From Geothrix sp. SG200 (GTDB taxonomy: Bacteria; Acidobacteriota; Holophagae; Holophagales; Holophagaceae): a stretch of 64,000 bases of DNA. Of this stretch, positions 270 to 53,450 are shown in pieces. How positions within the stretch are numbered: position 1 is the stretch's first letter; each line of letters begins with the position of its first letter. A program made the translations under genes and the position numbers. Under the pieces are notes generated by a model. It was not told the origin of the DNA, ran no database searches, and saw only the letters and a list, made by a program, of their open reading frames with translations. Where the stretch lies: positions 1 through 64,000 of the forward strand of contig NZ_JAKZFR010000008.1 in NCBI RefSeq assembly GCF_022808935.1, written 5' to 3'.

Positions 270-1862
270 CTAGCGGGCGGCTTTGAAGGTGGGTTTGGTG
301 GGGGCGTTGGCGACGGCTTGGCCGAGGTCGAAGGTGAACTGGGCCTGCTGGAGCATGCCGCGCAGGTCCCAGGTGGGGTCGTATTCGTCGGTGACCTGGT
401 GGTAGCGCTTGCCATAGGCTGCGGCTTTGGCTTTGAGGGTGGCTGGGTCGGCGCCCAGGTAGTCGCGGCCGCCGCCCACGGAAAGCGCAGGCACGCCCGC
501 CTGGACGAAGCTGAAGTGGTCGGAGCGGAAGTAGCCGCCGGCGGTGTCGGGTCGGCTGGAGGCGACGGCGAGGCCCGAGGCCTTGGCCACGGCGGCGCCC
601 AGGTCGCCGAGGGTGCTGCGGTTGCCGAAGGGCAGGCCGATGTCCCGCGCGGGGGCCACGAAGTTGAGGCTGTCCAGGTTCAGGTCCGCGGCGGTCTTCG
701 CCAGGGGCCAGAGGGGGCTGGCGGCGTAAGCCTTGGAACCCAGCAGCCCCTGCTCCTCCCCGCAGACGAAGAGGAACATCTGGCTGCGCCGGGCGGGGGT
801 GTGGACGGCGGCCTGGGCCATGGCGAGCAGGGCCGCGCAGCCCGAGGCGTTGTCCACGGCGCCGTTGTAGATGCCGTCGCCCTCGTGGCCTGGGTGGCTG
901 TCCGGGGCCGGGGCGGAGCCCTTGCCCAGGTGGTCCCAGTGGGCGGAATAGATGACGACCTCTTCCTTCAGGGCCGGGTCGGAGCCGGGGATCACGCCGG
1001 CCACGTTGAACTGGTCGAGGGTGCGCACCGCGCTGGCGAGGGTGCCCTTGAGGCGCAGGTCCAGGGGCACGGGACGGAAGTCGCGGCGCTGGGCGGCGAC
1101 CCGGAGGGCGTCGAGGTCCCCTCCCCCCTGCTTCACCAGGGCCCGGGCCACGTCCTCGGTGACCCAGCCCTCGAGCGGCGCCCCCTCGGGGCCCTTGGCC
1201 AGCCGGAAGCGCTCCGCGTCCCAGCCGTTGCGCACCACGGGCCAGCCATAGCTGGCGGAGGGGGTGGTATGGACCAGCAGGATGCCGACGGCGCCCTGGC
1301 GGGCGGCCTCCTCGAACTTGTAGGTCCAGCGGCCGAAGTAGCTGAGGTCTGGGCCCTCGAACCGTCCCGGCTCCTCGGGGGTGGGGGCGGGTTCGTTCAC
1401 GAGCACCAGCAGGACCTTGCCCTTCAGATCCATGCCCTTGAAGTCATCCCAGCGGTCCGCGGGCGAATGGATGCCGAAGCCGGCGAAGACCACGGGCGCA
1501 TCGAAGGCCTGCTCGGCCCTGGCGACGCCGGAACCGTAGACGATGGCCGGGCCGAAGGCGGGCGTGGCGCAGGCCCCGCCGCCCATGAAGCTGAGGACGC
1601 TGCGCTCGGGGAGGGTGCGGAGCCCCAGCAGGGGGACGGCCTGCCGGTATGACGTTCCCTGGGCGGGCTTCAGGCCCAGGGCCTGCAGCTGGGTCTCCAG
1701 GTAGCGCACGGTCAGCTCGGCCCCCCGCTGCCCGGTGCCGCGGCCCTCCAGCAGGTCGTCCGCCAGGAAGGCCAGGTGGGCGCGAAGGGGCGCCTCCGGC
1801 ACGGGGGGCGCCGCCTGGGCAAGAAGAGAAACCGTGGCCAGGAGGAACGGCAGCACGCGCAT
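270..1862 (-). CDS. Exported M28-family metallopeptidase with PA domain
   Basis: This is a zinc-dependent aminopeptidase-type protein of about 530 aa, probably acting in the periplasm or outside the cell. The start is ATG at 1862, seven bases after a GGAG site, because it puts a Sec signal (MRVLPFLLATVSLLAQA) at the N-terminus; the frame is open 12 codons further up. A PA-type insertion lies near residues 100-170 (VVFAGFGIHSP). The M28 zinc and catalytic residues are all visible: HWD near 307, DNASG near 336, EE near 369, LDS near 397 and SDH near 450. It lies 25 bases downstream of rsmE on the same strand, so the two are probably cotranscribed. The substrate cannot be told from sequence. Confidence 0.9.
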   Translation of the reverse strand: MRVLPFLLATVSLLAQAAPPVPEAPLRAHLAFLADDLLEGRGTGQRGAELTVRYLETQLQALGLKPAQGTSYRQAVPLLGLRTLPERSVLSFMGGGACATPAFGPAIVYGSGVARAEQAFDAPVVFAGFGIHSPADRWDDFKGMDLKGKVLLVLVNEPAPTPEEPGRFEGPDLSYFGRWTYKFEEAARQGAVGILLVHTTPSASYGWPVVRNGWDAERFRLAKGPEGAPLEGWVTEDVARALVKQGGGDLDALRVAAQRRDFRPVPLDLRLKGTLASAVRTLDQFNVAGVIPGSDPALKEEVVIYSAHWDHLGKGSAPAPDSHPGHEGDGIYNGAVDNASGCAALLAMAQAAVHTPARRSQMFLFVCGEEQGLLGSKAYAASPLWPLAKTAADLNLDSLNFVAPARDIGLPFGNRSTLGDLGAAVAKASGLAVASSRPDTAGGYFRSDHFSFVQAGVPALSVGGGRDYLGADPATLKAKAAAYGKRYHQVTDEYDPTWDLRGMLQQAQFTFDLGQAVANAPTKPTFKAAR

Positions 1863-39398: not shown

Positions 39399-39475
39399 CG
39401 GAGCGTGGCGCAGCCTGGTAGCGCATCTGCTTTGGGAGCAGAGGGTCGCGAGTTCGAATCTCGCCGCTCCGACCA
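39399..39475 (+). tRNA. tRNA-Pro (UGG)
   Basis: A complete cloverleaf with encoded CCA: acceptor CGGAGCG/CGCTCCG, D arm GCGCAGCCTGGTAGCGC, anticodon stem TCTGC/GCAGA around loop TTTGGGA (anticodon TGG at 39433-39435), T arm GCGAG-TTCGAAT-CTCGC. It is followed by a T-arm-containing repeat region. Confidence 0.96.
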
Positions 39476-39497: not shown

Positions 39498-39680
39498 GGC
39501 GAGATTCGAACTCGCCCTGGCCACGCAGGCGTGGCCAGGATCCAGCGTCGAGTGGACTTTCGGAGGCAGGACTAGATGTCCTGCCGGAGAAGGGCCGGCG
39601 GCTGGCAAAGCCAGGCGCAGTTCGAATCAGCCAGTGTGGGTCGCCGAGACCGTCGGAGCCTGCCGGCGGGTTCGAATGGC
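39498..39680 (+). repeat. tRNA-tail element downstream of tRNA-Pro
   Basis: Contains an 18-base inverted copy of the tRNA-Pro T-arm (39498-39515), hairpin CTGGCCACGC/GCGTGGCCAG (39517-39538), hairpin GGCAGGAC-TAGAT-GTCCTGCC (39565-39585), a direct T-arm-like copy GCAGTTCGAATCAGCC (39617-39632), GTGGGTCG (39636-39643) and another TTCGAAT (39671). The same order is seen after tRNA-Arg. No protein gene is supported here. Confidence 0.65.
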
Positions 39681-39729
39681 ATTGTGGCGTCGGGGCCTCT
39701 GTCGCGCCGGAGCAAGACCAAGCCACCCT

Positions 39730-40302
39730 TCAGGCCGATTCGGATTCCCCGGAAGGCGCCTCTGATCCGGCCCCGGGCGCCCGGGACGACCCCCGTATCG
39801 GGGACTTCAGCAGGAAGGCCTTCTTGTCCCGCTGGTACTCCGCCGGGTCGTAGTCCGGCGTCGCGGCCAGGCACCACTCCGCGTATTGATGGATGGACAT
39901 GACGGGCTTGGCGGGGTTCCCGCTGGCCAGGACATTCGGGGGGATGTTCCGCGTCACGACGGATCCCGCAGCGATCACGGAGTTGGGGCCGATGGTCACG
40001 CCGGGAAGGATGATGGCCCGCTGACCGATCACGCAGTTGTCCAGCACCGTGATCCGGCCGTACTTGATGACCTTCTTGTAGCGCTCCTGGTCGCGGAAGA
40101 CATGGGTGCCGCCGTCATGCGTGAGAAAGCAGACTTCCGCGGCCATGGCCACATGGTGCCCGATGGTGACCAGGTAGGGTTCTGAGCCGAAGTCAGGAAG
40201 TCCCCCCAGCTTGCAATCGCCCGGAAGGGTCAGGCCGGCCCTCCGGAGCTGCCAGAGCCGGAGGCGATTGTAGAATTTCCGCACGGAACTGACGATGAGC
40301 AT
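39730..40302 (-). CDS. Hexapeptide-repeat O-acetyltransferase (CysE/WbbJ-like)
   Basis: A 190-aa LbH acyltransferase. LbH repeats run from about residue 28 (CKLGGLPDFGSEPYLVTIGHHV) to about 140, with the catalytic His in FLTHDGGTH and the end motif ITVLDNCVIGQRAIILPGVTIGPNSVIAAGSVV. C-terminal residues 150-190 are an extra helical tail. Divergent from the carrier-protein operon across a shared AT-rich regulatory region, so it probably acetylates the cluster product or a surface glycan. Confidence 0.88.
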   Translation of the reverse strand: MLIVSSVRKFYNRLRLWQLRRAGLTLPGDCKLGGLPDFGSEPYLVTIGHHVAMAAEVCFLTHDGGTHVFRDQERYKKVIKYGRITVLDNCVIGQRAIILPGVTIGPNSVIAAGSVVTRNIPPNVLASGNPAKPVMSIHQYAEWCLAATPDYDPAEYQRDKKAFLLKSPIRGSSRAPGAGSEAPSGESESA

Positions 40303-53228: not shown

Positions 53229-53373
53229 CGGGCGCCGACCCACTTCACGCTGGACTCGAACTGCCATCGGCTGGCCCCGGCCATGACGGCTTCAGGCCGA
53301 CATCAAGTCGGCCCTTCGCCTATGGCCTACCGGGCCGCCGATGTTTCTCGCTGGTCCGAGTCCAGCTAGGCGC
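53229..53373 (-). repeat. tRNA-tail element downstream of tRNA-Arg
   Basis: Reading leftward: an inverted copy of the tRNA T-arm/acceptor (53350-53373, one mismatch to 53378-53401), hairpin GGCCGAC-TTGAT-GTCGGCC (53295-53313), a direct T-arm copy GTTCGAGTCCAGC (53249-53261) and GTGGGTCG. The order and spacing match the element after tRNA-Pro (GATGTC to GCAGTTCGA: 40 versus 42 bases). Confidence 0.65.
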
Positions 53374-53450
53374 TGGTGCGCCTAGCTGGACTCGAACCAG
53401 CGACCTGCGGCTTAGAAGGCCGCTGCTCTATCCACCTGAGCTATAGGCGC
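53374..53450 (-). tRNA. tRNA-Arg (UCU)
   Basis: Minus-strand cloverleaf with CCA: acceptor GCGCCTA/TAGGCGC, D arm AGCTCAGGTGGATAGAGCA, anticodon loop CTTCTAA (anticodon TCT), T arm GCTGG-TTCGAGT-CCAGC, discriminator A. The downstream DNA contains an inverted copy of the last 24 bases before the CCA. Confidence 0.95.

Follow-up and report, generated by a model that had tools for sequence, protein, structure and literature searches.

Behind the tRNA-Arg(tct) gene of Geothrix sp. SG200 lies a palindrome made from the end of the tRNA gene itself, and the question raised by this locus is what kind of element is attached to the gene and how it acquired copies of its neighbor. The initial annotation of the window, i.e., the whole stretch of 64,000 nucleotides analyzed here, had proposed that the last 24 bases before the CCA are repeated in inverted form just beyond the gene, that a hairpin with a TWGAT loop, a direct T-arm copy, and the motif GTGGGTCG follow, and that the same element stands behind tRNA-Pro(tgg), the two representing a real and probably undescribed repeat family. 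The SG200 assembly (G000) comprises 3.36 Mb in 10 contigs with 46 tRNA matches. Judging by the protein of a neighboring gene, the nearest named relatives are Geothrix paludis, campi, oryzisoli, and terrae (96–98% identical).

Two tRNA genes with tails in the window

The features of the tRNA-Arg(tct) locus are listed below, where T' denotes the inverted copy of the tRNA end and T the direct copy.

53374..53450, minus strand: tRNA-Arg(tct), host gene of the element (ARAGORN; Rfam RF00005, 72.1 bits)
53378..53401, minus strand: arm 1 of the palindrome, consisting of the T-arm and the 3' acceptor strand of tRNA-Arg(tct) (sequence; fold)
53350..53373, minus strand: T', arm 1 inverted with one mismatch (sequence; 24-bp stem in the fold)
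53256..53349, minus strand: type M core, 94 nt including both ends, GAGAAACA..GGTAGGCC..GGGGCCAGCC..GTTCGA (nine distinct copies; covariation)
53294..53314, minus strand: tip hairpin with an 8-bp stem and a TTGAT loop (sequence; fold)
53249..53261, minus strand: direct T-arm copy GTTCGAGTCCAGC, 13 nt (sequence)
53236..53243, minus strand: end motif GTGGGTCG (sequence; by eye, also in the units of other species)

The 24-base palindrome with its single mismatch was borne out: arm 1 stops just before ACCA, i.e., one base before the CCA, and the inverted copy directly abuts the gene (53401-53378 versus 53373-53350 on the minus strand). The hairpin, the direct T-arm copy, and GTGGGTCG were all found where they had been claimed to lie. 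The fold of positions 53229-53401 had an energy of −118.1 kcal/mol, compared with −72.8 ± 4.3 kcal/mol for 200 shuffled sequences (z = −10.6), none of which was as stable.

The tail of the second gene contains the following features.

39399..39475, plus strand: tRNA-Pro(tgg), host gene of the second copy (ARAGORN; Rfam)
39498..39515, plus strand: T', the inverted T-arm of tRNA-Pro, 18 nt (sequence)
39516..39539, plus strand: extra hairpin h1, between T' and the core (comparison of tails)
39549..39625, plus strand: type A core (88.7 bits, E = 3e-20 with model R1, among whose building sequences it is included)
39636..39643, plus strand: end motif GTGGGTCG (sequence)
39673..39738, plus strand: possible second type A unit, decayed (model R1, 24.5 bits, E = 0.002)

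The proposal that both genes carry the same element held for the layout and the flanking motifs, which are common to the two loci, but not for the cores, which are of type M behind tRNA-Arg and type A behind tRNA-Pro. The best match of the tRNA-Arg core to the type A model R1 reached only 20.6 bits (E = 0.02 in 447 kb). Hairpin h1 and the core of the tRNA-Pro tail recur in the tRNA-Asp tail (96 bp, 83% identical), and hairpins resembling h1 were recognized by eye in the Thr and Arg tails. An Rfam scan of the window at gathering scores detected only the two tRNAs.

Frequency, anatomy, and distribution of the tails

We compared the tails of the 46 tRNA genes of SG200, two of which lie in the window, with their counterparts in genome G017, taken as G. 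terrae and considered without its extra tRNA cluster, and in genome G002. Eight SG200 tRNAs followed by another tRNA were excluded, which left 38 tRNAs that were the last in their unit. Three ARAGORN calls were taken as false and dropped: tRNA-Arg in L058, tRNA-Ser(act) in L162, and tRNA-Asp in an array in L043. The first criterion used a 24-nt probe of the tRNA's own 3' end, which had to match the tail in inverted form at ≥ 17 of 24 positions and better than the best of 40 dinucleotide shuffles; the second required T' and then T in the tail, and had no shuffle control. The first criterion was met by 13 of 38 last-in-unit tRNAs in SG200, 13 of 37 in G. terrae, and 7 of 39 in G002, and either criterion (the union of the lists) by 17 of 38, 17 of 37, and 7 of 39, respectively. 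As a control, the inverted-copy test was run in three other genera of the class, where none of the 28 tRNA tails was positive. At tRNA-Arg(tct) itself, where the first T' lies flush against the gene, the probe was one base too long for it and instead hit a decayed copy farther along the tail (18/24 at +149). According to the initial annotation, the absence of such tails from the other tRNA genes would have refuted the family; 17 of the 38 last-in-unit tRNAs carry one.

On the strand of the tRNA, the order is tRNA, usually an inverted repeat, T', core, and T, followed in arrays by the next T'; in some types, the acceptor strand, the CCA, and the terminator are repeated after T. Two classes were distinguished by eye, using standard tRNA numbering. 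Class A comprises the Pro, Arg, Asp, Thr, Met, His, and Asn tails, whose T' reaches approximately position 47 and whose direct copy often consists of the T-loop alone, followed by GTGGGTCG. The T' of class B (Glu, Gln, Cys, Ser, Leu, Phe, and Gly tails) spans tRNA positions 76 to 54, and the direct copy begins with the T-loop and extends past the CCA into the terminator; units of this class, like several at Arg(tct), finish with the T-arm, the acceptor, and the CCA (by eye). The cores fall into types A, M, B, and C, together with mosaics; the second unit behind tRNA-Glu(ctc), for example, joins the left part of type B to the right part of type C. Tandem units of 129–197 bp occur at five tRNA loci of SG200 (Asp, Arg-ccg, Ser-gga, Ser-gct, and Met), and two further arrays of this genome, of 178 bp and 174 bp, lie at a protein gene and behind a displaced piece of tRNA-His, respectively. 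Most of the arrays read close, as judged by eye, with a shortened T' that either stands alone or is followed by the beginning of a core.

A scan of 297 genomes sampled from the phylum with the type A model R1, run under stricter filters and not covering types M, B, and C, gave matches in 22. By listing order, these comprised 20 of the 21 Geothrix genomes and 2 of the 6 others from the family; none of the remaining 270 in the phylum sample matched. By BLAST, one unit was found in 18 of the 25 Geothrix genomes and in none of 16 others. Among the matches listed for four genomes with mapped tRNAs, 24 of 28 lay ≤ 600 nt downstream of a tRNA on the same strand, and the remaining four lay 2.6–30 kb downstream of one. 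Three of these four have a displaced 3' tRNA piece next to their array, as is usual where an island has entered a tRNA gene; the fourth is at the Pro locus of G002. In a wider set of 80 stretches, 84 of 99 copies were ≤ 600 nt from an intact tRNA, but this figure is biased because the stretches were chosen for holding tRNAs or earlier matches. In a copy from another genus (G169, L383), a type A core stands behind tRNA-Pro within a ten-tRNA cluster, and its T' fits the tRNA but its direct T-loop does not. Dense clusters of extra tRNAs, perhaps on mobile DNA, were seen both there and in G017 (C14:157-164 kb). The suggestion of a real repeat family was supported by its presence behind many tRNAs of the genome and in most of the genus, and by the covariation described below.

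Type C cores also follow a few protein genes, whose 3' end, with the stop codon, is duplicated on the far side of the core.

L060:1774-2199, L239, L241, L251; G000:C8:15848, C8:227763: hairpin elements that follow protein genes and are flanked by a second copy of the gene's 3' end and stop codon, in some cases as tandem units

The host genes are thioredoxin-like, short-chain-dehydrogenase-like, and acyl-CoA-dehydrogenase-like, although these names rest on the gene ends only, without a family search. A type C search of 27 genomes, 17 of them Geothrix, gave 1–7 matches in each of 13 genomes, all Geothrix.

Conserved cores with ends that mostly follow the local tRNA

The pattern for type A gave 67 matches, of which 51 distinct cores were retained; the discarded matches were off-pattern, and on visual inspection most of them looked like coding sequence, tRNA genes, or cores of another type. 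The type A core is approximately 77 nt long and forms two hairpins, and all 51 distinct cores are compatible with one fold. In an alignment of 32 of the 51 cores, hand-picked for diversity, 90.6% of the cells of 23 pairs were paired, compared with 76.6 ± 0.8% after shuffling. Both sides had changed in 15 of the 23 pairs, and the covariation score was 0.434 (shuffled, 0.184 ± 0.011; slid controls, ≤ 0.141). The number of further pair types in type A did not exceed that of the shuffles (25 versus 28.4). For type M, nine distinct copies gave 29 pairs with 96.1% of cells paired and a covariation score of 0.236, compared with 0.090 after shuffling. Types A and M thus have conserved structures with compensatory changes. 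The CGAGTGG of the type A core resembles a D-loop, and a tRNA-like reading of this core is mentioned merely as an idea.

Most type A copies keep a GGA unpaired opposite another GGA at the foot of the tip hairpin, with a GA/GA step beneath. These mismatches bear on a mutational explanation, in which template switching during replication at tRNA and terminator hairpins duplicates the tail in both directions, the cores are patches from other loci, and palindrome correction maintains the stems. Such a process agrees with the tandem units and, as far as they were read by eye, with the truncated last units, and the direct-inverted-direct order resembles the inverted triplication called ODIRA, which arises in yeast by template switching (PMC11790251). 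However, correction should have removed the GGA/GGA and GA/GA mismatches, and the confinement of type A to one family and the recurrence of core types argue for a specific element. We consider this explanation unlikely.

Among 86 single mismatches in 44 related elements, read on the tRNA-sense strand, GG (27), AG (23), and GA (10) prevailed over CC (3) and CT (2). This purine-purine bias (60 versus 5) suggests that one particular strand, when folded, seems to matter. In a wobble count meant to tell RNA from DNA, with column pair 5-50 omitted, GU-type exceptions in type A outnumbered AC-type exceptions by only approximately 15 to 9, one pair accounting for 9 of the 15.

A folded strand might be RNA. 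The tail could be co-transcribed as a structured RNA in which T' competes for the 3' half of the tRNA: pairing of T' with the tRNA would trap it, pairing of T' with the T copy farther along would set it free, and tRNA maturation or termination would be tuned in this way. The covariation of types A and M, the purine-purine mismatches retained on the tRNA-sense strand, and the fixed orientation of the core behind tRNAs are all in line with this role; the last point counts against the reading as DNA because an RNA role would give the same. In addition, the predicted fold of the whole tRNA-Arg precursor of the window places the 3' half of the tRNA in a hairpin with T', and there is no terminator hairpin ahead of T' at either tRNA of the window. 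However, 15 of the 17 tail-bearing tRNAs of SG200 have an inverted repeat between the tRNA and T', 11 of the 17 with a T run as well, so many tails are probably little transcribed, although there are no expression data. T' and the core themselves have no T run (by eye). Moreover, cores persist behind displaced tRNA halves, and type C cores at protein genes occur in either orientation (by eye), which argues for DNA. An RNA role is rather unlikely in our judgment, if less so than the mutational origin.

The ends mostly follow the local tRNA, similar cores stand behind different tRNAs, and units have multiplied in tandem at several loci. The initial annotation had asked whether the T-arm copy always matches the adjacent tRNA, and the answer differed between the parts of the tail. 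For T', it was mostly positive where T' is present: in 77 distinct type A copies, the tRNA of the locus was the best match in 37, tied in 10, and was surpassed by another tRNA in 1, and 29 had no T', mainly later units or those with an extra hairpin in front (by eye). Of the 72 type A copies whose direct T-loop was readable, 61 had the T-loop of the neighboring tRNA, compared with a mean of 30.6 and a maximum of 43 in 2,000 permutations that ignored kinship. Beyond the T-loop, the expectation failed, in that the direct copy was not tRNA-specific (own tRNA strictly best in 15 of the 77, tied in 11, and another tRNA better in 51).

A survey of tRNA-Arg(tct) covered 30 loci in 29 genomes of the 47 searched. 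The first T' was full and readable at 21 of the 30 loci, and an A/G difference among the tRNAs (11 A and 10 G) was accompanied by the complementary base in the T' of 20 of the 21, the exception being G045; kinship was not removed. In G007, T' tracks a change in the T-loop as well. By eye, 24 loci contained a core or part of one, 3 had T' alone, 2 lacked T', and 1 was at a contig end, and the core type varied between species.

The nearest relative of the 77 type A copies was found at the same tRNA in another genome in 41 cases, at a different tRNA in another genome in 30, and at another tRNA of the same genome in 4, with 2 ties. With only 4 copies closest to another site of their own genome, recent moves within genomes are not evident. 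One Arg(tct) core is 95% identical to the Pro(cgg) core of another species, and tRNA-Gly(ccc) of G. terrae has a Ser-type core whose T' and T nonetheless fit Gly (by eye). A filled and empty pair was seen by eye at tRNA-Leu(caa), where SG200 and G017 have a unit and G002 has none, with the same gene downstream. We judge by eye that some tail-less loci of a species may be occupied by an island rather than empty.

Possible origins and known systems

The best explanation of these observations is that the tails are small, non-coding, hairpin-forming DNA elements of Holophagaceae located at gene 3' ends, chiefly those of tRNA genes. Concerning how they got there, our best guess, held only tentatively, is that a hairpin element is set at gene 3' ends by folded-strand recombination through a recombinase that has not been identified. 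The active form, as inferred here, would be a folded single strand. The T'/T stem would then rebuild a double-stranded copy of the tRNA T-arm, and would therefore be able to recombine with the T-arm or another gene end, remaking the 3' end of the gene as tRNA-integrating islands do. Arrays may have come from repeated rounds or from unequal crossing-over, and the first T' may have been generated by copy-back synthesis at the terminator hairpin, which is no more than a guess. Several points count against recombination: T' is missing from 29 of the 77 type A copies, the direct copy is non-specific beyond the T-loop, recent moves within a genome are not evident, the core orientation behind tRNAs is fixed, and no enzyme was found. 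Whether these are a new class of mobile element, with a folded single strand that makes its ends out of its target gene and an unrecognized recombinase of Holophagaceae, is more doubtful. If so, the core would gain inverted and direct copies of the target's tail on arrival, and the same core would fit behind any tRNA.

Several known systems were compared with the tails. REP/BIME elements are short extragenic palindromes, mostly downstream of genes and partly in tandem clusters with flanking DNA (PMC3733652). In these respects, REP/BIME elements with their RAYT (Y1) transposases are like the Geothrix tails, but the Geothrix core is longer and structured, the ends copy the neighboring tRNA or gene, the elements are tied to tRNAs, and the genome has no RAYT. 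A REP is a small palindrome (20–40 bp) with a GTAG/CGTC tag, whereas type A has approximately 77 nt and, by eye, no such terminal tag; type M carries an internal GGTA (by eye). The Y1 transposase (PF01797) had no match in SG200 and was present in 2 of 25 Geothrix genomes, and an origin from RAYT/REP was rejected because SG200 lacks the enzyme.

The T' of class B, corresponding to tRNA positions 54-76, looks like a primer-binding site. However, reverse transcriptase (PF00078) had no match in the tail-bearing genomes G002 and G017, and two in SG200; since two genomes with tails lack it, a tRNA-primed origin by reverse transcription was rejected.

The attC sites of integrons are folded hairpins with paired ends and a variable tip, arranged in arrays, and their ends follow the consensus RYYYAAC/GTTRRRY. 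The tails share the folded hairpin, the paired ends, the variable tip, and the arrays. The integron integrase (TIGR02249) scored above its curated cut-off in 18 of the 25 Geothrix genomes and in none of 16 others from the class; together with the BLAST unit it was found in 15 Geothrix genomes, while 3 had only the unit, 3 only the integrase, and 4 neither. Several Geothrix genomes have attC sites of ~125–130 bp, with arrays in L297, L301, L304, and L305, but the ends of these sites are CCTAAC/GTTAGGC and their body is different, and no such ends were seen in the tails (four arrays versus 32 type A cores, by eye). Integron cassettes were rejected because, despite the presence of the integrase, the attC sites differ from the element. 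The integrase of SG200 is located at G000:C8:248113-249057 (in L157), and contig C8 ends just past it.

Searches of IMG/VR with four exact patterns gave 0, 0, 6, and 8 stretches, by eye none with a core behind and all with the look of coding DNA or tRNA genes. A phage origin was rejected, as these scans of viral contigs gave no element.

The rtT repeats of the tyrT locus of E. coli stand in tandem behind a tRNA gene and contain the tRNA 3' end. They are like the Geothrix tails in being tandem repeats 3' of a tRNA gene, and unlike them in being known from one locus and as direct copies only. When ten tail loci were compared with Rfam at E values of up to 1, only tRNAs reached the gathering score, and there was no match named rtT. 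In archaea, around half of the tRNA genes are followed, at a distance of ~10 bp, by a palindrome of ~20 bp with one common sequence (PMC5217627); unlike the Geothrix T', it is not described there as a copy of each tRNA. That the family is probably undescribed is supported by the lack of an Rfam family and of any description in the literature searched, which is weak evidence because subscription journals were mostly outside the search.

Genomic islands that integrate into tRNA genes by tyrosine integrases require closer consideration. They target the 3' part of the tRNA and carry a piece of it that restores the gene end as a direct repeat (PMC4383910), and in this they are like the tails. The units could be deleted relics, or copies, of the attachment sites of such islands. 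Three arrays (Thr in G017, Met in G024, and His in G000) adjoin displaced 3' tRNA pieces 12–30 kb from the intact tRNA, which suggests that islands entered there. However, the 45–58 nt that these pieces share with the intact tRNA begin close to the anticodon, at tRNA positions 30–33, whereas the units have their boundary at the T-arm. Attachment sites would not be expected to contain an inverted T', and the Geothrix units have this extra copy together with a conserved, folded core shared between loci. They are mostly ~130–200 bp long, and the tandem units of 129–197 bp are too short to hold an integrase gene between the tRNA and the fragment. We regard an origin from attachment sites as very unlikely, and retain the hairpin element set at gene ends as the preferred reading.

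Outside the window but on its contig (C9 of SG200), ~24.5 kb (~98,770-123,371; L139 and L072) separate the intact tRNA-His(gtg) from its displaced 3' copy, which shares 58 nt including the trailer and has the tRNA-His array on its far side. This stretch is probably an integrated island. A similar displacement of the Pro(tgg) array of G002 was not confirmed, as no second 18-base tRNA piece was found in the 4.1 kb examined.

tRNA genes are favorite docking sites of mobile DNA, and ends that track each tRNA across species, combined with a core that stands behind different tRNAs, represent a new footprint of recombination or folding. A single genus offers dozens of parallel natural experiments with filled, empty, swapped, and tandem sites. 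The tails also matter for the annotation of Geothrix genomes, in which they can give spurious tRNA calls and perhaps contig breaks. The largest SG200 contig (C1; L053) terminates within the tRNA-Gln(ttg) array, and such repeats may therefore break assemblies. In L043, a tRNA-Asp call by ARAGORN (929-1026, minus strand) is the antisense strand of an array, so arrays can yield false tRNA annotations.
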